Assembly (NCBI GenBank): GCA_031258945.1
Contig: JAIRME010000045.1
Location: forward strand, 1 to 58,307
DNA: 58,307 nucleotides
Direction: 5' to 3'
From: Mycoplasmataceae bacterium
GTDB taxonomy: Bacteria; Bacillota_I; Bacilli_A; Mycoplasmatales; Mycoplasmoidaceae
The notes beneath the pieces are model-generated. The model searched no databases and was not told the origin of the DNA. It saw nothing but the letters and a program-made list of their open reading frames with translations. Numbering within the stretch: position 1 is the stretch's first letter; each line of letters opens with the position of its first letter. Positions 14,822 through 58,307 of the stretch are shown here, piece by piece. A program made the translations under genes and the position numbers.

Positions 14822-14963
14822 AAATAAAACAAGTAAATTATATCTTTACAAAAATCAGTAATTTAGTAATTTGAAATGTGTATTTTTTTTCAATTTGGCT
14901 TAGATGATATTTTTAAACTGCAAAAAAAATATTGTCGTTTTTAGGTAACGAAAAACTTTATAA

Positions 14964-15025
14964 AATCCCCCCCCTTGCCGTCACATAATAGGTAACATGT
15001 ATTTAATTAGCAATGGGGGGGGATT
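14964..15025. repeat. Inverted repeat whose arms are C8 and G8
   Basis: AATCCCCCCCCTTGC at 14964-14978 is matched in reverse by GCAATGGGGGGGGATT at 15010-15025, one base bulged, with about 31 bases between. Both arms contain an eight-base G/C homopolymer in an AT-rich genome. Slippage in either arm would change the stem. Confidence 0.75.
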
Positions 15026-15067
15026 AATTGAAATAGTGCTATAAGCACTAATTTAGTTCTTTCTCTA

Positions 15068-15106
15068 AAAACAAGATCTTTGACAACGCCAAAGGTCTTG
15101 TTTTTT
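15068..15106 (+). terminator. Strong terminator-like hairpin in a surface-gene leader
   Basis: AAAACAAGA-T-CTTTG (15068-15082) pairs with CAAAG-G-TCTTGTTTT (15090-15104), a 15-bp stem with one wobble and a seven-base loop, followed by T6. It lies 32 bases before the start at 15138 with no promoter between, so it may attenuate that gene or end a small upstream RNA. Confidence 0.7.
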
Positions 15107-15137
15107 GTTGCTATCTGACAAAATTAAGGAGAGAAAA

Positions 15138-16475
15138 ATGATACAAAATAAAACAACTTCAATGCAAAGAAAACACCATAAAAGAAGAATGGTATGAACT
15201 AGTATTTTATGCGGAATAGCATTAATGGGTACAGGTATTGGTATTGGTTGGGCAATCCATACTTCTAAAAAAACTAACCCTGATTTTACCAACCCACAAA
15301 TTCTGTTAAAGAGAACGGAAGGTGATCCTTCTTTAAAAAATGAAGGTGACTATATAGAATACAATGTTGAATGTAATATTTCTTTATCTAATTTTACTGG
15401 TTCTAATGTATCTATTTCTGATATTGAACAAATTGGTCAAAATGGTCAAGGGTTTATATGACTAAGAGGTTATACTCCAGACACTCACGAAGTCCCCATA
15501 GAAAAACAGACTCGAATTATTTGAAATAATCCTGATGATATTAGTAAAGGAGTGCGTTTACATATTGAACTTATTAAAGACTATGATGGTTCATTAGGAG
15601 AGTTTTTACCAATTGATGTTACTTTTACTATCCATGATGACAAAAATAGATATGAAGACGTAAAAACAACTGCTCATGTTGTATTAGATAGCGACAATGA
15701 TGAGCCTGTTATTACCAATGATCGCATTAGTAATGTTTCAACCATAAACATGGGGATGAATCGCGATACAACGATTGAAGATATAGTAAATTATTTACAA
15801 GCTACTAATGAAAGCATAAGCGGAACACAAACGCTAAATGATGATTTTTTTAGCCAAAATATTAACCCTTCACAAGTAGCGGCCTTATTTTTTATTGAAA
15901 CTTTGAATATTTGAAAAAATTGTTTGGTAGATTTTTTCAACACATATGTGGATACAGAACAAGAATATGCTATGGATACTTCTTTTTATGATTTTTCTCA
16001 GTATACAATTGATTTTAGAATAGATGATATTATTTATTCAGGATCAGATACGTTTGGTAATAAAAAATTTTTCTGTTCTTTTGAACAAGAAATATTTAAT
16101 AACAATAATGAGACTATAGATCTTTCTGAAAGTGGTGCATATTTTGTACCAAAATATCCATTTCCAAAAGATAGTTCTGATACCTTCTACCCTTTTTATG
16201 ATATTCCATCCGCGTATTATTACGGAATTAATAAAACAATTTCAGATGTTGTATCATCTTATACAACATCAACTGAAAGGTGTGCGACTAATTTATCAGG
16301 AGGTAGTAATTTTTCAGCATCTCTCATAGATAGCAATGAATATATTTCTGGTAATTTGATAAATTTATGAGTATACCCATATCGTACAGGTGGCATATCA
16401 TTATTCAATCAAACTGATTACACTCCAACATCCATTGCGGAACTATTTTGACCAAATGTAACTTTCGCAAATTAA
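15138..16475 (+). CDS. Membrane-anchored surface protein of unknown function
   Basis: A 445-residue protein with a basic N-terminus (QRKHHKRRM), one hydrophobic segment at about residues 20-39 (signal anchor, no lipobox Cys) and a long polar, Asn/Asp/Ser/Thr-rich ectodomain. AAGGAGAG precedes the ATG. Four regions join only through UGA Trp codons. No family is recognised. It shares style (anchor plus polar beta-rich body) with the surface proteins at 24-40 kb. Upstream are the G8 tract and a terminator-like hairpin, so expression may switch. It converges with the helicase gene; the 129-base gap shows no clear terminator. Confidence 0.75.
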
Positions 16476-22500: not shown

Positions 22501-23274
22501 CTATTCATCATATATCATTATTTTGCAAAGAACAGACCCAGCTTGTTGTGTTGGTGAAATGGCTTTCAAGGTATAACCATATGTGCCAGCTGGTGCTGTT
22601 AATGTTCCTGTTATTGCCCCTGTGTTAGCGTTCAAAGTTAATCCTTCTGGTAAAGAACCACTTGTACTATACATAATATTGTCGCGAAGAGCACCGGTGG
22701 TATCATAACATTTCACATTATCGTTTATATTTACCGTCGCCCCAGTATTAATTAAATAGTCATCATCAACATTAGTAATAAATAAAGAATCCATGGATGG
22801 GTTTGTTCACATAGCATCAATAATTATCTTGTTTCATGACACTGTTGAAAGATCTGTTGTATTTATATCTACTTCATCATTTGTGCCTCAACAAGTAATG
22901 GACATTGAACTATATGTTGGTATTCTTTTAAAATAAATTATTGTTGTTCCTTTTCCTCCTTCTCCTCCTGATGTGGCACTGAAAAAAAATACATTCTGCG
23001 ATCTACTAAAAGAGTTATTTAATGAATACCTTCCAGTAGGACTTTTATCGTTCGCAGTGGTCGCGACAAGTTCATATGTTCCAATAGAATAATCATGTAT
23101 GGCATCCCCGAAAACAATGTCTGAATCAGAGTCCATAGCAAGGCATTTCAAAGTTTCAAAATTAGTGGCAAATGTCGGTGTTTTGGAACAGGCACTAATA
23201 AAAGATATCGGAAACGTAATAGATGATAATGCTAAGATTGGGGTCGCGAACTTTAATAATTTTATCTTTTTCAT
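22501..23274 (-). CDS. Lipoprotein with Ig-like (He_PIG type) domain, phase-variable promoter
   Basis: A 257-residue lipoprotein. The signal peptide ends in a lipobox (SFISAC, Cys29). The UGA at 22888 is Trp. The C-terminal 60 residues read SGSLPEGLTLNANTG and AGTYGYTLKA, the pattern of putative Ig/cadherin-like He_PIG domains that form extracellular stalks. It lies behind a promoter whose spacer contains a nine-base homopolymer, so expression probably switches. AGGAG lies 10 bases before the ATG. Ligand unknown. Confidence 0.85.
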
Positions 23275-23305
23275 TTTTTATTTCTCCTTGGTTATCTAAA
23301 CATTC

Positions 23306-23336
23306 ATTATAAAGTAATGGGGGGGGGAGTTGTCAA
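23306..23336 (-). promoter_or_regulatory. Promoter with C9 tract in its spacer
   Basis: On the - strand a perfect TTGACA (23331-23336) and a perfect TATAAT (23306-23311) are separated by 19 bases. Nine of these (23319-23327) are a C homopolymer. Loss of two C would restore the optimal 17-base spacing. Spacer-length switching is an established phase-variation mechanism. Confidence 0.85.
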
Positions 23337-23339
23337 CCC

Positions 23340-23641
23340 ATAAAGGGCAACTATATCACCAACGCGCGTATACGTATGAGCGCGAAACATACCTAACATG
23401 TTAGGTAAATTCTGTAATAATCATTGATAAAAATCAAAAAAAATAAATTATAAAAATTTCTAAAAAAGTCTTTTTTTAGAAAATTATTATGTCGAATATT
23501 TACCATGTAAGTACATGATCTAAAATGCCACGGCGAATAGTTACTTATACTTTTTTTACTTGATACTTACTTAGCGGCTCTTATAGTTAAAATAAAATGC
23601 ATTTTGAAAATGATAGTGCTTGGATATATATTTTTTTCATT
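23340..23641. other. Gene-free region with palindromes and a terminator
   Basis: About 300 bases without a gene. It holds a perfect 16-base palindrome ACCTAACATGTTAGGT (23391-23406), a GC-rich imperfect palindrome around CGCGCGTATACGTATGAGCGCG (23363-23384), CATGTA-AG-TACATG (near 23504), and an A/T hairpin (ATTTCTAAAAAA at 23456-23467 with TTTTTTTAGAAAAT from 23471) that can terminate the gene ending at 23642. Confidence 0.6.
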
Positions 23642-24580
23642 TTATACTACTTCGTAACTAACAATAATTGAACCAAAATAATTGTCGCCAAAAGCTTCAA
23701 TATAACATACACCATGATTAGGTTCACTAGTTACCACTTGCGATCAAAATGCTTCTCATCCACTCAATGGAGTTGTTGTAGTGTTTAATAATTCTACTCT
23801 TAATCTAATGTCTTGTCTATTTGGTTGTTTGATAAAAGTACCTAAATTTTTGTTAACAATAATAGTATTAATATCAACTCCTTTTGGATATTCAAAAGTA
23901 ACTTGTGCCTGCCCGCTAAAGAACGAATTCCCCAAATTAACATTAATCATTGCACCAAAATCATTAAAATTAACAGTCAATTGCTGGAGTACTTCATTCC
24001 ATGAATGTAAATCTCAATCATTAGGTGAAAGTTCATTCATTGCAAAAAAAGTTTTAACCACATCTAATTCGGTTGGTTTCCCATCATAAAAAGAACCAAT
24101 ATCTTTTTTAGGTAGTTGACCAATATCTCTTTGTGCAAGATAACAAATAATTTCAGGTGATTTAAATTCTTGTTTGTGGACTGATGCAACTAATCAAAAC
24201 TTAAATTGTAAAACATCAGTTGGAAAGATAACATCATCGCGAAAAGAAATCGTTAATGAATGTGTTCCATCATCATCATTACCATGCAATCCTTCTATTT
24301 TTAAAATTTGATCTCAACTATAAGTATCTGGTAGATTAGAGTATTCAGTTCAATGAATATCATTTCACTTTATCCCTCCCCCCCCAGCATACTCCACTGA
24401 TAAAACTGTACTATTGTAATTAGTATTAACACAGCTAATGGACTCGTATGATAATGCATAATTAATGCTAACCTCATCATTCGACTTTCTCATTAAAAAT
24501 CAATATGTACAAAATCCGCCAGCACCTACAACTGTAAGCCCTATTATTGGCAAAATAATCTTAAGTTTCTTTTTTTTCAT
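23642..24580 (-). CDS. Surface protein with in-frame G8 coding tract (ON)
   Basis: 312 residues: basic start (KKKKLK), one hydrophobic segment (about 6-29) as signal anchor, and an Asp/Thr-rich ectodomain. Codons 66-68 are GGG GGG GGA, from a G8 homopolymer at 24378-24385. The frame is open through it to the TAA at 23642, so this copy is ON; one base gained or lost would shift frame near residue 67. Seven or more UGA Trp codons are used. The segment NSFFSGQAQVTF resembles FYTGSVTIT and MYTGEIKVVF in the preceding gene, suggesting shared repeat modules. It starts 35 bases after that gene. Confidence 0.8.
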
Positions 24581-24615: not shown

Positions 24616-25893
24616 CTAATATGAAGTACTCCAAGTAATAGTAACAGAACCAGTGTAAAATAAATTACCTGGAATTGGTTCAAGAGTAAAAGTACCATCA
24701 GACTGTCAATCATTTCAAGTTGATACATTATTTCAATTACACCCACTAGGTAATAAGATAGCATCCCAATTAATAGCAGTATCTAAATTCGCGTCAAGAG
24801 CTTGCATAAAATCAGCAAAAGTAGGTTTTTCAATGAATGAAAGAACACGTTTATCACCCGGAACAACAGTTTCTAAATTTTCTCCAGTTGGTTCTACAGA
24901 ATAAGTAATTTGTTTAATACCGGTTCAATATTCATTCCCTTGCTTAACGCTTAATGTTCTACCACCTTGTGAATAAGTACCAAAATTTACATCTTCTTGA
25001 ACTATGTTTTCCTTGGTACCGAATGCATTCTTATTGGTTTCCATAAATCAGCTAAATATCTCTAAATCAGAAGGATCTTCAGCCAAAGCTCCTCCTGCAC
25101 TCATATTTGTAATGGTTGCCGAACTGAAGTTGATACGTCCAACATTAAACACAACTTTAATTTCACCTGTATACATATTGGAATAATCAATTGGAAGAAG
25201 ATTAACTGAATAAGTATCAACATCATCGCCAGCATCATTCCATTGTAATCCTGTAGAACTTTTTACATCGTCAATTTTGATTTGGTTAATATCTAAAGCA
25301 CCGTTATATAAGGTTGATGCATCCAATCACTTCAATAAATTTGTTTGATTATCAATACCTTTCAAAGAAGACACATCAACAGCACTTTGTGTTGATAACC
25401 AAGTTGCATAACTACTGTTTAAATTTACTACATTGTCTGTTCCATTAAAAGCTTGGTTCAAAGTAATAGGAGTAGTTGGGTTTTGTTGCGCTCATTGAAT
25501 ATTAACTACATTACCTGAATCAGTTTTGTAATCAGGTGATCAATCTACTACTTTAACCTGAGCTGTACATACACTAGGGGTTGACACATTAATATTATTA
25601 AAAGTTCATTGATTAGGATGTCAATTATCATCTTGGGAACCACTTGGGTTATTAGCAATTTTTAAAATACTATTTAATTGACGAGAATTAGGGGTTATAT
25701 TGACTCCTCACGGAACAGTGCCTAAATTTGTAATCGTAAGAATAGAAGATAATTCTATTGGGTCTCCAACTGTCTGTACATTAGAATGACTATTTAAAAT
25801 AATGTTTGTAACTACTCCAGTAGTCATTCCTAATAATCCAGCTGCAGACAGCGAACTTGCTGTCAAAATTACTATTTTCTTTCTCTTATTCAT
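24616..25893 (-). CDS. Surface protein, paralogue-like to its downstream neighbour
   Basis: 425 residues with a basic start (MNKRKKI), a hydrophobic segment (about 8-34) and no lipobox Cys, so anchored rather than lipidated. The body is polar with short motifs MYTGEIKVVF and FYTGSVTITW that recur in the next gene; such beta modules are familiar in mollicute surface proteins. Intact only with UGA as Trp (25708, 25048 and others). TATAAT at 25930-25935 is the likely -10, and a nine-base C tract occupies the -35 position, so the two-gene operon is a phase-variation candidate. Function unknown. Confidence 0.78.
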
Positions 25894-25929
25894 ATGAATT
25901 CCTTTACCATAACATCTGCTAACGAAAAC

Positions 25930-25964
25930 ATTATAACATTTTCGTCATTATTGATGGGGGGGGG
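25930..25964 (-). promoter_or_regulatory. Promoter with C9 tract at the -35 position
   Basis: On the - strand TATAAT (25930-25935) lies 37 bases before the ATG at 25893. The C9 homopolymer (25956-25964) covers where a -35 hexamer would sit with a 17-base spacer; no TTGACA is present. Tract length may set contact with polymerase or a factor. Confidence 0.65.
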
Positions 25965-28020: not shown

Positions 28021-30033
28021 TTATATTCCTCCTTTCACTATTGGATCTTGTTCTACACTAACATTCAAAGGATATGTTGTATAACCAACGGCTGCAGTTT
28101 TAGTGTTAAAAACATAGATCATTAGCACAAATCCATATGATGAAATAGTGCCAGTAGCAGTAACATTAAGTTTTCCACATTGTTTATAAGTTGGGTCATT
28201 CACAGTTTCAAAAAAATTAACGGAAATATTATCAGCGTCGTATGTTAGTGCATATGAATAGATCAAGTCAGTAGCACTTCCCGATATATTAAATATAATG
28301 TCCCTTGTTTCATTTTGTGCTAAAACTATACTAGAAGTACTTTCATCTTCATATTTTATATTACGATAAGTTGGAACCATATCAGTTGTTGGAATGGAAA
28401 CAATTACCAAAGTAATATTTTTGGTGCCATCAGTTAATCCATTTTTGGTACATTTAATGGTTAAACTATATGTTCCTACTTCTGCATCTGTAGTTCAAAC
28501 TAATTGTCCTTTAGTAGTGGCGGACATTGAAATTCAATTTGGTAGTGTACCACTCGTGGCAGTAACACTTCATGTACCAGTATTAGTAATATTTGTGCCG
28601 GTATTATCGCCTGCTTGAAAATCTGCGGTGCCGGCTGTACTAGTAGCACCTTGAAGATTACTAGTCCCATAAATAGTGATAGATGATGGAGTTGGAGCAG
28701 TATTAGAAATCAATAAAGTAACATTTTTAGTGCCATCAGTTAGTCCACTTTTGGTACATTTAACGGTTAAATTATATGTTCCTACCACTGCAGCTGTAGT
28801 TCAAACTAATTGTCCCTTAGTGGTGGCGGACATTGAAATCCAACTTGGTAGTGTACCACTTGTAGCATTAACACTCCATGTACCAGCATTAGTAATATCT
28901 GTGCCAGTATTATCACCTGCTTGAAAATCTGCAGTACCAGACGTATTAATAGGACCTTGAAGATTATTTGTCCCATAAACGGTGATAGATGATGGAGTTG
29001 GAGCTATATTAGAAATCAATAAAGTAACATTTTTAGTACCATCAGTTAATCCATTTTTGGTACATTTAATGGTTAAATTGTATGTTCCTACCGCTGCAGC
29101 CGTAGTCCAAACTAATTGTCCTTTAGTAGTGGTGGACATTGAAATTCAATTTGGTAGTGTACCACTTGTGGCAGCAACACTTCATGTACCAGTATCAGTA
29201 ATATTTGTGCCAGCATTATCGCCTGCTTGAAAATCTGCGGTGCCGGCTGTGTTGATAGCACCTTGAAGGTTACTAGTCCCGTAAATGGTGATAGATGATG
29301 GGGTTGGAGCTACATTAGAAATCAATAAAGTAACATTTTTAGTGCCATCAGTTAATCCGCTTTTGGTACATTTAATGGTTAAATTGTATGTTCCTACCGC
29401 TGCAGCTGTAGTCCAAACTAATTGTCCCTTAGTGGTGGTGGACATTGAAATCCAACTTGGTAGTGCACCACTTGTGGCAGCAACACTTCATGTACCCGTA
29501 TCAGTAATATTTGTACCAGCATTATCGCCTGCATGAAAATCTGCAGCTCCAGCCGTGTTAATAGCACCTTGAAGATTATTCGCACCATAAATATTGATGG
29601 ATGTTGGAGTTGGCGCAGGATTTGTAATAGTTAAATGAAATTGTTTTGAACCATTTTGATTCGTGTCTTTTTTAAAATAAGAAATAGCTAATTCGTAATC
29701 ACCAGCAACTGCATCCGAAGTTCAATCTAGTTGGCCTTTATTTGATGTGGACATTGAAATCCAACTTGGCAATGTACCGCTTGTAGCAGTAACACTTCAT
29801 ATACCATCATCGGTAATGTTTACGTTGCCATTATTAACTGCTTGAAAATCACTACTATCTGCGACTCCTGATATGCCTGAATGATTCTCCGTTCCATGTA
29901 TGACTACATCAGATGATCATTTGCTACTAGCGATTGCTATAGCGGTTATTGGAGTAACAATTGTTGCAGACAATAAAAGAGAAGCACAAATTATTGGAAG
30001 AGGTTTTCCCCATGATAAAATACTTTTTTTCAT
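28021..30033 (-). CDS. Surface protein with near-identical Ig-like repeats
   Basis: 670 residues. A hydrophobic signal segment (about 12-36) is followed by one diverged and four nearly identical 102-residue repeats, then a unique C-terminal domain of about 135 residues. Each repeat carries GTLPSWISMS and VGTYNLTIKCTKSGL, an Ig/He_PIG-like beta domain. The DNA repeat is 306 bases. UGA marks one Trp in most repeats (GTWSV). Such arrays extend from the surface and change length by recombination. Second gene of the operon, starting 10 bases after the first. Confidence 0.85.
28394..29617 (-). repeat. Four 306-bp tandem repeats
   Basis: Units start near 29617, 29311, 29005 and 28699 (- strand). 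A landmark (AGATGATGG on the + strand) recurs at 28681, 28987 and 29293, exactly 306 bases apart. A diverged fifth unit precedes them at about 29920-29618. Confidence 0.9.
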
Positions 30034-30043
30034 AATAACTATC

Positions 30044-33000
30044 CTACTTAATTGGTAATGGTATGATTCATTCAACTAATAATTTTTTATTGTCGACTTG
30101 AATAATGGCTTGAATGGTAATATTAAATGTTTGGGTAGGAAGATGATCAATCCGTAATTTGTTACCAATTAATGTAACATAATTCTCGGGTTTATCTTCG
30201 GTTGATAAAATATTCCAAACTATTTTGGAATTATCAATGGATGAACCATCACTCATTTTAATTACTCTAAAAATAATTTCATCACCTATTACAGTATTAC
30301 CACTACTATCAATTGCAAAATTTGGTTTGTCAGAAATAATGCCATATGAAACAGTACCATCTGAAAAATTAAAGTTAGCAAGATCATCGATATAAATTTG
30401 TATTATTCCTAAAACAGTAGTGAGTGCAACCAATAATGCTGTTGCAATAGCCATACCTATTGGCCCACCTTTAAATCCTTTTGGAAGTTCTGGCGATGAA
30501 CCACCTGCAACACCAGCAGCATCAACTGCGGCCATCGGTTCTGGTGGAAGAGCAGCAGGTGCATCCGGTGCTGGGGCTGGTTCAGGAGCTGGATTAGAAG
30601 AGGAGGAAGAGGAGGAAGCTTCTGAATCAGAAACATCATCACTATTTGGAAGACTACCATTTTCTTCTTCCTCTTCAGCAGCAATATAAGTTAATGGACT
30701 ATCACGAGTAAGTTCTGGTGCATGTTGTTCAACGAAAGCACATGCACCATCTAGGTCGGCTGGCGGGTCTACTCCATTGACACTATAACTACCGGATGAA
30801 TATTGACTAATTCGTCCACCTCATCTCATTCACACCGTTCCAAATAATTTCACACCAAGCATTAACCCTGGTAATGCTGCAGAACCTATCATAAAATAAT
30901 TAGAATACATTTCCGAATCTGTTAAGGAATCCATAATTGCTCTTCATTTTGCCAAATTTTGTTCTTCAGCATTATCATTTTCAGCGGTAATAACATTCAT
31001 TATGTTTGTTAAAAAAGTTCTATAGTCAGTCGTCATTGTAGCAATGGTACTTGATATATCATTTGCTGCTTGTTGTTTAATTAACAAATCTTTATGTGGG
31101 TCTCAAATGGTTTGATATCGTGCTAATATTGAAGAACCAATTTTTGCAAACGTATCTTTAATATTGATATCATAATAATTAGAGAATTTTTTCCATACTT
31201 TTTTGAACTTACGAATTGAATCAATTTCTTTCCCTTCTACTACATCAGCAGTAACGAGTAAACCAACTGCTGCCGTATTTAAAACAATTGAAAATGATAA
31301 ATACGCTGCAAATCCGCCAGATGCTATGAGGATAGCCGTATCAGTAGAAGTCAAAGCAATTAATCCTGCTTGTGCTACATTCATACTTGCTAAAAAACTA
31401 ATTTTTTGAGTCAATATTTTATCGACATTATCTTGGTTTTGATGTATGACTGTATTTAAACAATCAAAAAAATTCAATTTATTCATATCTTCTGTAACAT
31501 GGGTTGCAAAGTCTATCACTTTTGCTCATTGGGGATCAACATAAAAATTAATCCAAATATCGTTTTTAATTGTCCCATTATCATTTCAATTAAAAGTTTG
31601 CGCCTCGTAATTACCGTTATTTTTATCAGAATCAATAATGGCTCAATGTGCAAGCACAGAGAAAGCATGTTGCCCAGCACCTTCAGAATTAGTATTAACA
31701 TCAGTCACCACTAATTTTAACTTCTGATTTGCATGAAAACAACCATCTTTAATTGGAATGGCAGGATTAATTTGCGGAATATCAATTCCTTTACATACGG
31801 ATGGATCAACATACATCGGGTCATCTTTACTAACTATATAATCTTGGTTAGCATCCTCTTTACCATAAGTCGACATTAAATAATAAAGTGGTATTCTAAT
31901 ATCTGGGCTACTAACATCATAGTAACGATCTTGATTGGAGTCATAACTACCAGAAGTAATATTTACAGATTTATTTGGATAATATTCATGTTGTGAAATA
32001 TATTTAACTTCATCTTTTTTAACATTGATTTCGATTGACAATGGATGAGCATCATCATTAATTGGCGCTCACAAAACATTAGATTGATCTTGATCAGAAG
32101 CAGTAGCAGAAATTCCAAATTGAAGATCTAAATGACATTTATGGCTGTCAGCTCATACATCTTTACCAGTAATTCTAAGATGTAGTTTATAACCAGGTAT
32201 GATTTCAGCCAATCCATAGGTTGCCCCGTAACCAGAATATGTTGAAAGTGGTTTAATTTCATATTGATTTAATGCATTATCATAATCACCACTTTCAGAT
32301 GGTTTTAAATCGTTAACATTGATATCTATATTTGATAGATCTACTTTACTAAGTATTGCTCCTTCTGTACGATCGTAGGCAAAATTAAACAATTGACTTA
32401 AGTCATTTGCACCAATTTCATCATTTACATCATATTGTCCATTAGCCGAATAATCTATAATTTTCTTAGTAAAATCGGTATCAGGAATAACTGTTAATAA
32501 TTGATTTAAATGTCTCTGGGCAAAATTTAGAGCCGCTTGTTTTTGTATGTCAGTAGAAGTAGGAGTATCAGTTAAATTTTTACTTTTAATTTGTTTAGCA
32601 GATAAACCATTTTCAAACATGCCAGTTGCTAAATGATATGTAAATTCAAATGGATCTCATAACTGATTCTCACCTTGCGTGGTAGTGACGTCAAAAACAT
32701 TACTAAACTGATCTGTTTTTTGCTTGGCTTGAGTTGGATCAACACCAGCAGAAATTAACATATTCATATAGCTACCCATCGTTGCTTCTTTGTTTTTAAT
32801 TGCCAATGAATAATCATTAAGATCAGCACCAATTTTTGCTGCTTCTCTTAAAATAGCATTGTATTTTACATTTAATAAATCTTGTTCATTATCTTGCTTA
32901 TTCTTATTGTTACCAATACTTTGAAAATCAGAAACCGCTTTATTTACATTGAATAAGAAAGCTCCTGTTTGTTTTATCACATCATCGTGAGCCGAATTAT

Positions 33001-57298: not shown

Positions 57299-58042
57299 TT
57301 AACTTTGCATTAAGCGACAAGCTTCAATATCAGCATATACAGTCACATCTTTATGATACAACAAAGACGTAATCGGTCAAATAGATGAATATTTTCCTTC
57401 AAATAATTTACTAATTGGTGCTGCTTTCGTATGCCCATCAGCTAAAAGAATTATCTTCTTAACATTTAATATTGATTTAATACCCATCGTTATAATCTCT
57501 GTAGGAACATTAATTTTTTCATCAAAAAAATTCATAAGATAAGTACGCGTGTTATTTTCTAATTTACCGATATGAGTGGTTGTATTAAATTTGGTATCTG
57601 GTTCATTAAAAGCAATATACCCATTGGGACCAACAGAAAGAATTAACAAATCAATTCCGCCTAATGTTTGTATTTGTTTATCGTAAATTTTGTAATTATC
57701 AAGAGAAGGAAAGTGTGTATTTTCTAAATTGATATCAATCCTAGAAAACAAAAAATTATTCATAAAATTAGTTTTAGAATATTTTTTGTATCTTTTGTCA
57801 ATATCAATATATTCATCAGTATTAAAAGAAATTACATTAGTAAAACTAATTTTATTTTTTTTAGCTTTTAATGCCATTCGCTCATATAACGGTTTAACAG
57901 TAATGCCAGCGCTAAAACCCAATACTGGTCGTTTGTTTTGATGCACAAAATCACAAACAACAGTAGATACTTTGTCCGTCATTTCCTCGCTATTAATGCA
58001 AGGAATAAATTTAATAACGTTCGTCTTACGAAAAAATGGCAT
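57299..58042 (-). CDS. nagB: Glucosamine-6-phosphate deaminase-like protein
   Basis: Family enzymes convert glucosamine 6-phosphate to fructose 6-phosphate and ammonia. 247 residues, near normal. The phosphate-binding GFSAGITVKPLYERM, SFNTDEYIDID (catalytic Asp kept) and SVGPNGYIAFNEP are recognised. In the last motif the usual GHIAFNEP His, which opens the sugar ring, is Tyr (GYIAFNEP). Activity is therefore uncertain. UGA at 57377 is Trp; the true end is TAA at 57299, one base past the convergent unknown gene. Divergent from the phase-variable lipoprotein. Confidence 0.85.
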
Positions 58043-58085: not shown

Positions 58086-58307
58086 GTGAAGTTCAAGATA
58101 GTCAAATCATTATTAATATTAAACTGTGCAATTGTGGGGGGGGGTGACTCTTAGTTTATTTAGCACTTCGTGCTCTAAACCACAAACAGAGGTTGATCCA
58201 ACTGATTATGTAGGTAATGCAGACGGTAGTAATTGGAAAGGTTATGTAAGTGGGACACTTACATGTACATTTGATGATGATAACGGTTCTGCAACACTTA
58301 TTAATGG
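58086..58307 (+). CDS. Phase-variable lipoprotein, frame-shifted OFF by G9, 3' end beyond window
   Basis: From GTG 58086 the protein starts (M)KFKIVKSLLILNCAIVG and meets a G9 tract (58136-58144). With nine G the frame stops at TAG 58152-58154 after 22 codons. With eight G it continues VTLSLFSTSCSKPQTEV, a complete signal peptide with lipobox STSC, and stays open to the end of the window (VDPTDYVGNADGSNWKG and on). So the gene is a typical mollicute lipoprotein now switched OFF by one extra G, assuming no sequencing error. Confidence 0.8.

Follow-up and report, generated by a model that had tools for sequence, protein, structure and literature searches.

Candidate phase-variable poly-C promoters and a putative frame-counting leader attenuator at surface-protein genes of an uncultured Mycoplasmataceae lineage

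Background

In Neisseria meningitidis the size of a poly-C tract in the promoter of opc (opcA) controls transcription of the encoded surface protein, according to the account of Sarkari et al. (1994) relayed in PMC3960869. Among mollicutes, promoter switching by repeat length is known for vlp of Mycoplasma hyorhinis, with a poly-A tract, and for vmm of M. mycoides, with a dinucleotide repeat in the promoter spacer (PMC10502178). A further arrangement, the phase-variable attenuator, has been described for the two pilus loci pil1 and pil3 of Streptococcus gallolyticus (Danne et al. 2014, PMC3894217), and in the open-access papers searched we found no other case of phase-variable attenuation.

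Here we describe a poly-C promoter in a contig of 58,307 nt (JAIRME010000045.1, contig 35 of the genome, henceforth the window) from a Mycoplasmataceae bacterium whose assembled genome comprises 835 kb in 46 contigs, is AT-rich (about 30% GC) and uses TGA as a tryptophan codon. By UvrA its nearest named relatives, at 92-82%, are uncultured 'Mycoplasmataceae bacterium' metagenome-assembled genomes, for which the isolate codes allow us to guess at the termite gut as host; in relatives a syntenic lipoprotein gene lies upstream of uvrA. Comparisons used one assembly per species, and the genus set comprised 36 genomes, with that of the window counted among them.

The promoter at 23306-23336 and its lipoprotein gene

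Read on the minus strand from 23336 to 23306, the promoter consists of TTGACA, ACT, C9, ATTACTT and TATAAT, with a spacer of 3+9+7 = 19 bases. The relevant features are:

23331..23336, minus strand: -35 box, TTGACA
23319..23327, minus strand: C9 tract within the 19-base spacer, one of the 15 poly-C promoters checked in this genome
23306..23311, minus strand: -10 box, TATAAT
23284..23289, minus strand: ribosome binding site, AAGGAG
22501..23274, minus strand: lipoprotein of 257 aa (code 4) with lipobox ISACSK and a C-terminal putative Ig domain (He_PIG)

The preliminary description of this locus had placed the promoter at exactly these coordinates; its two consensus boxes, its 19-base spacer including C9 and its arithmetic that C7 would give a spacer of 17 all withstood recounting, and the lipoprotein it had assigned to 22501-23274 is indeed an RBS-preceded gene downstream of the promoter. 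The open reading frame begins with the ATG at 23274, ends at 22501 and contains three TGA codons read as tryptophan. Like the opc, vlp and vmm promoters, this promoter carries a simple repeat between its -35 and -10 boxes and precedes a gene for a surface protein, presumed to be exposed in view of its lipobox and Ig-like domain. Transcription is expected to start near 23299, which would give an unstructured leader of 25 nt; between this point and the lipoprotein gene there is neither a terminator nor a leader ORF switch, and the pil1-type arrangement of a repeat in a leader ORF ahead of a terminator is thus absent from this promoter.

An exact TTGACA-N14..22-TATAAT occurs once in the window, at this promoter. 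The boxes alone would be expected 0.68 times by chance in Markov-1 sequence of the window, and boxes together with the tract appeared in none of 60 simulations. Three runs of C9 or G9 are present in the window against 0.02 expected, and runs of six or seven C or G are found nowhere in its 58 kb; the long tracts therefore form a separate class.

A decayed paralogue of the lipoprotein gene, interrupted by internal stops, is found in the same genome with 79% DNA identity over about 1 kb, and its promoter retains TTGACA followed by C8; the comparison is one of eight against nine C with other changes adjoining the tract. A perfect palindrome, TACCTAACATGTTAGGTA, at 23390-23407, about 54 bp upstream of the -35 box, is a possible operator, and it too is mostly retained in this paralogue.

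Two further tracts lie in or upstream of other surface-protein genes nearby in the window:

24378..24385, minus strand: G8 tract within the coding part of the neighboring surface gene 23642-24580 (codons GGGG), in frame as assembled
25956..25964, minus strand: C9 tract upstream of the surface gene 24616-25893; AATAAT follows it after 3 nt and TATAAT after 20 nt, a candidate promoter

The G8 run is a tract of the translational type, in which a change of one base would shift the frame of the protein. In the region 25893-25964 the TATAAT downstream of the second tract falls within an inverted repeat, ACGAAAA...TTTTCGT. Elsewhere in the window a C9 at 58136-58144 lies upstream of a non-surface gene, 57299-58042, which by eye we take to be a glucosamine-6-phosphate deaminase, and in the surface-protein gene 28021-30075 a unit of about 100 aa recurs several times, in frame and almost unchanged, making the gene a candidate for size variation.

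Poly-C promoters as a genome-wide class

We located all C9 tracts of the genome and extracted their surroundings. Many directly precede a TATAAT and share the orientation of a surface-protein gene, and most poly-C promoters of this genome precede genes for surface or secreted proteins. Counted with overlaps, C8-N2..10-TATAAT matches 24 times here and 43 times in one congener (G002), as against 0-3 per genome in 246 other genomes of the order, and the reversed-pattern controls gave no match in this genome or in G002.

In the 15 promoters checked here a tract of C8-C11 stands 4-9 nt upstream of TATAAT. In twelve of them a hexamer that agrees with the -35 consensus at four or more of its six positions precedes the tract by no more than 5 nt, for which the null expectation is 0.30 each, and a recognizable -35 at the tract is absent from the remaining three. 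The spacers of the twelve measure 14, 15 (four times), 16, 18 (three times), 19, 22 and 24 bases, a spread to be expected if a population of tracts had been sampled at various lengths. In one pair of near-identical copies the tracts read C9/G9 in one and C8/G10 in the other, with two differences in about 56 flanking nucleotides. About half of the poly-C promoters, 7-8 of the 15 checked (one with an interrupted G tract), feed a second switch in the leader that is described below.

The poly-C promoters of G002 are mostly C9, near-identical copies included, and no clear -35 was found beside their tracts; the mechanism may thus differ in that species. Many of its promoters (e.g. L126:145, L249-L266) share a conserved CACCACAAAT-Cn-GGTGTA-TATAAT, with an ATG about 6 nt past the -10 box, so that the lipoprotein genes they precede are apparently leaderless. 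At least one such gene (L126:227, minus strand) has a second tract, G8, in its signal-peptide codons.

A leader module with a second repeat

The module that follows about half of the poly-C promoters checked in this genome is represented in the window by the copy at 14967-15138, ahead of a surface gene:

14967..14974, plus strand: C8 tract of the poly-C promoter of the module
14957-14962 and 14984-14989, plus strand: weak -35 (TTTATA) and -10 (CATAAT) of the same promoter, spacer 21
14997..15014, plus strand: start of the short leader ORF, ATG TAT TTA ATT AGC AAT, 7 nt past the -10 box
15015..15022, plus strand: G8 tract within the leader ORF
15034..15050, plus strand: hairpin P1 of the leader, TAGTGCTATAAGCACTA, with compensatory changes in relatives
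15067..15108, plus strand: intrinsic terminator, separating the leader ORF from the surface gene
15138..16475, plus strand: membrane-anchored surface protein of 445 aa (code 4) under the leader module

As the ATG stands only 7 nt past the -10 box, the leader ORF is apparently leaderless. Across copies the order of parts is a poly-C tract (in some copies), TATAAT, 6-8 nt, ATG, 4-6 codons and G8-G11, then a small hairpin, a pyrimidine stretch, the intrinsic terminator, a ribosome binding site and the surface gene. The modules of G021, G033, G006 and G019 and two of those in G024 carry (GA)n where the others have a G tract, the order of parts being unchanged; at the (GA)n loci (L203-L208 in G021, L200 and L201 in G024, and L244-L248) the modules are otherwise homologous. 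Of the 16 stem pairs, 12 show compensatory changes, and 95.5% of cells pair as opposed to 37-51% when slid.

A covariance model of the module has 24 matches in this genome and more in six congeners. Over the order the module was detected in 6 of 248 genomes, all of this genus, with a seventh congener weakly positive; a second, broader model had no match in the rest of the order sampled, and G002 had no covariance-model match. In view of this restriction to one genus among 248 genomes of the order we reject a general mollicute element. A downstream start could be read in 58 modules; the protein that follows has a strongly hydrophobic segment at its N terminus in 50 of them and a lipobox-like motif in 28. 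A distant relative of the lipoprotein at 22501-23274 (30% identity, in G024) also sits under a leader module.

The pil1-type arrangement, a repeat in a leader ORF followed by an intrinsic terminator, is found in the window copy and 65 others, translation of the leader being putative. These 66 modules, which have both a tract and an ATG and come from six species, were used to examine the reading frames. None has an in-frame stop between the ATG and the tract. Past the tract, the three frames typically comprise one with a stop at 4-14 nt, one with a stop at 18-36 nt and one that is open past the 5' arm of the terminator; as at pil1, it depends on the frame whether the ORF extends to the terminator. 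At least one open frame is present in 65 of the 66, and the full three-frame pattern in 60. A plain shuffle test over seven clusters gave 0.16, which is not significant; as this test is too weak alone, we ran a neutral simulation along the module tree, in which the means were 48-50 modules with an open frame and 27-33 with the full pattern. At least 65 open modules were reached in 0.1-0.25% of neutral runs, and the observed full pattern in 0 of 4000. Since the stop-position thresholds were chosen after inspection of the data and the shuffle was not significant, we regard the frame evidence as strong but not as independent proof.

As assembled, 18 leaders have the open frame (predicted ON) and 48 do not (predicted OFF), the former being near one third. 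Near-identical leader pairs differ in tract length in 17 of 21 cases, one pair with identical 56-nt flanks having GA repeats of 16 and 22 nt, and to judge from these pairs the leader tracts change fast. In the window copy the leader ORF at G8 meets a stop 22 nt past the tract and at G9 would run through the terminator, so that G8 is predicted to be OFF and G9 ON.

Alternative explanations

One rival concerns the leader: the length of its purine tract might act through RNA structure, by pairing of the G or GA tract with the conserved pyrimidine stretch, and not through the frame. For the G000 copies RNAalifold does predict such pairing of the G tract, and the pyrimidine stretch is retained where GA replaces G. 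However, pairing between homopolymers can slide, so that one unit more or less would change little, whereas it changes the frame every time; and the ATG before the tract, the stop-free stretch between them and the three-frame stop pattern are all conserved. In two degenerate copies (L239 and L199), moreover, the ATG is missing along with an intact tract. We hold an effect through structure to be unlikely, though it deserves consideration, and prefer frame counting by the leader ORF.

For the promoters, the poly-C could instead be a fixed element of constant length, a DNA structure or a regulator-binding site, with promoter strength depending on some protein or on the stiffness of the G:C run itself. 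The situation in G002, with its prevalent C9, its tract set within a partly palindromic CACC...GGTG and its want of a clear adjoining -35, is what such an element might produce, and the palindrome upstream of the -35 at 23331-23336, largely retained in the paralogue, could be taken in the same sense. Yet tracts range from 8 to 11 within each genome, near-identical copies differ, the distance to the -10 box varies and the spacers of 14-24 seen here are unlike a fixed geometry, all of which makes this explanation improbable.

We give still less weight to an ordinary constitutive promoter in which slippage has left the C tract behind as a neutral by-product. The genome does contain many C and G tracts, some of them within coding sequence; but the tracts cluster 5' of TATAAT in sense orientation (24 against 0 reversed) and at surface genes, and the window has C8 and C9 runs with none of C6 or C7, so that a by-product appears distinctly improbable. 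An invertible promoter of the Mycoplasma penetrans kind, with the opposed C and G tracts that many copies carry about 50 bp apart as arms of the invertible element, can be dismissed as extremely improbable, since the C and G tracts have different flanks and fixed roles, every copy reads one way into its surface gene, and the promoter at 23306-23336 is bracketed by no inverted repeats of the p35 type, having around it only A/T-rich imperfect inverted matches.

A model of two stacked switches

What remains is a slipped-strand phase-variable promoter, a reading that these comparisons support well without proving it. We consider it likely that the locus is a promoter of the sigma-70 type whose spacer is set by a hypermutable poly-C tract, and that it belongs to a genome-wide set, part of which has the second leader switch. 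During replication, slippage would add or remove C residues and thereby move the spacer away from or toward about 17 bp, and transcription of the lipoprotein gene would change at random, and heritably, between high and low or off. With C9 (spacer 19), as assembled, the promoter would be weak or off, and with C7 (17) or C8 (18) it would be strong. The C9 promoter is thus probably a random on/off switch for a surface lipoprotein. The preliminary description had spoken of a ready-made on/off dial; the genome-wide evidence lends weight to the mechanism so proposed, but the promoter is one member of a family and does not stand alone, and the second switch borne by part of that family had been overlooked.

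In the leader, a ribosome translating the open frame is proposed to trail RNA polymerase into the terminator stem and so prevent termination, while in the two other frames it would halt early and transcription would end. Transcription-translation coupling is documented for bacteria, and M. pneumoniae is discussed in that literature. This switch would be independent of the poly-C switch, tract length setting whether the ribosome reaches and breaks the terminator. We lean toward the broader proposal, with less assurance than for the promoter itself, that two stacked slippage switches run the surface repertoire of one uncultured mycoplasma lineage: the poly-C tract would decide whether the RNA starts and a leaderless frame-counting attenuator, based on Gn or (GA)n and numbering up to dozens of copies in a genome, would decide whether it continues, the type of repeat having been exchanged between species with the frame logic kept.

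Comparison with known systems

Because a C-tract switch is known from Neisseria and switches based on other repeats from mycoplasmas, the promoter at 23306-23336 by itself adds one member to a known class. It shares with opc a homopolymeric C tract in the promoter of a surface-protein gene, a tract whose length would likewise govern transcription; it differs in belonging to another phylum and to a whole set of promoters, some with a second leader switch. With vlp and vmm it has in common that slippage of a simple promoter repeat would serve as the switch of a mollicute lipoprotein gene, but here the repeat is of C in a genome of about 30% GC, and the likeness is one of arrangement, with no homology claimed.

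The leader module resembles pil1/pil3 in that a repeat lies in a short leader ORF, its number determines the frame, and the long frames would take the ribosome into an intrinsic terminator before a surface gene. Unlike pil1/pil3, where the repeats are GCAGA, the module uses G or GA, has no ribosome binding site for the leader and a start codon about 7 nt past the -10 box, carries an additional conserved hairpin and pyrimidine tract, and can number dozens in one genome, often combined with a poly-C promoter; its pil1-like function is a prediction from the genomes. If the frame-counting reading of the leader is true, phase-variable attenuation would be a genome-wide regulatory language in mollicutes too, and one could test directly how regulator-poor genomes make individual cells differ and how the switches in promoter and leader act together. 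What is new relative to the described systems is the combination of two switches, the exchange between G and GA, the leaderless ORF and the copy number.
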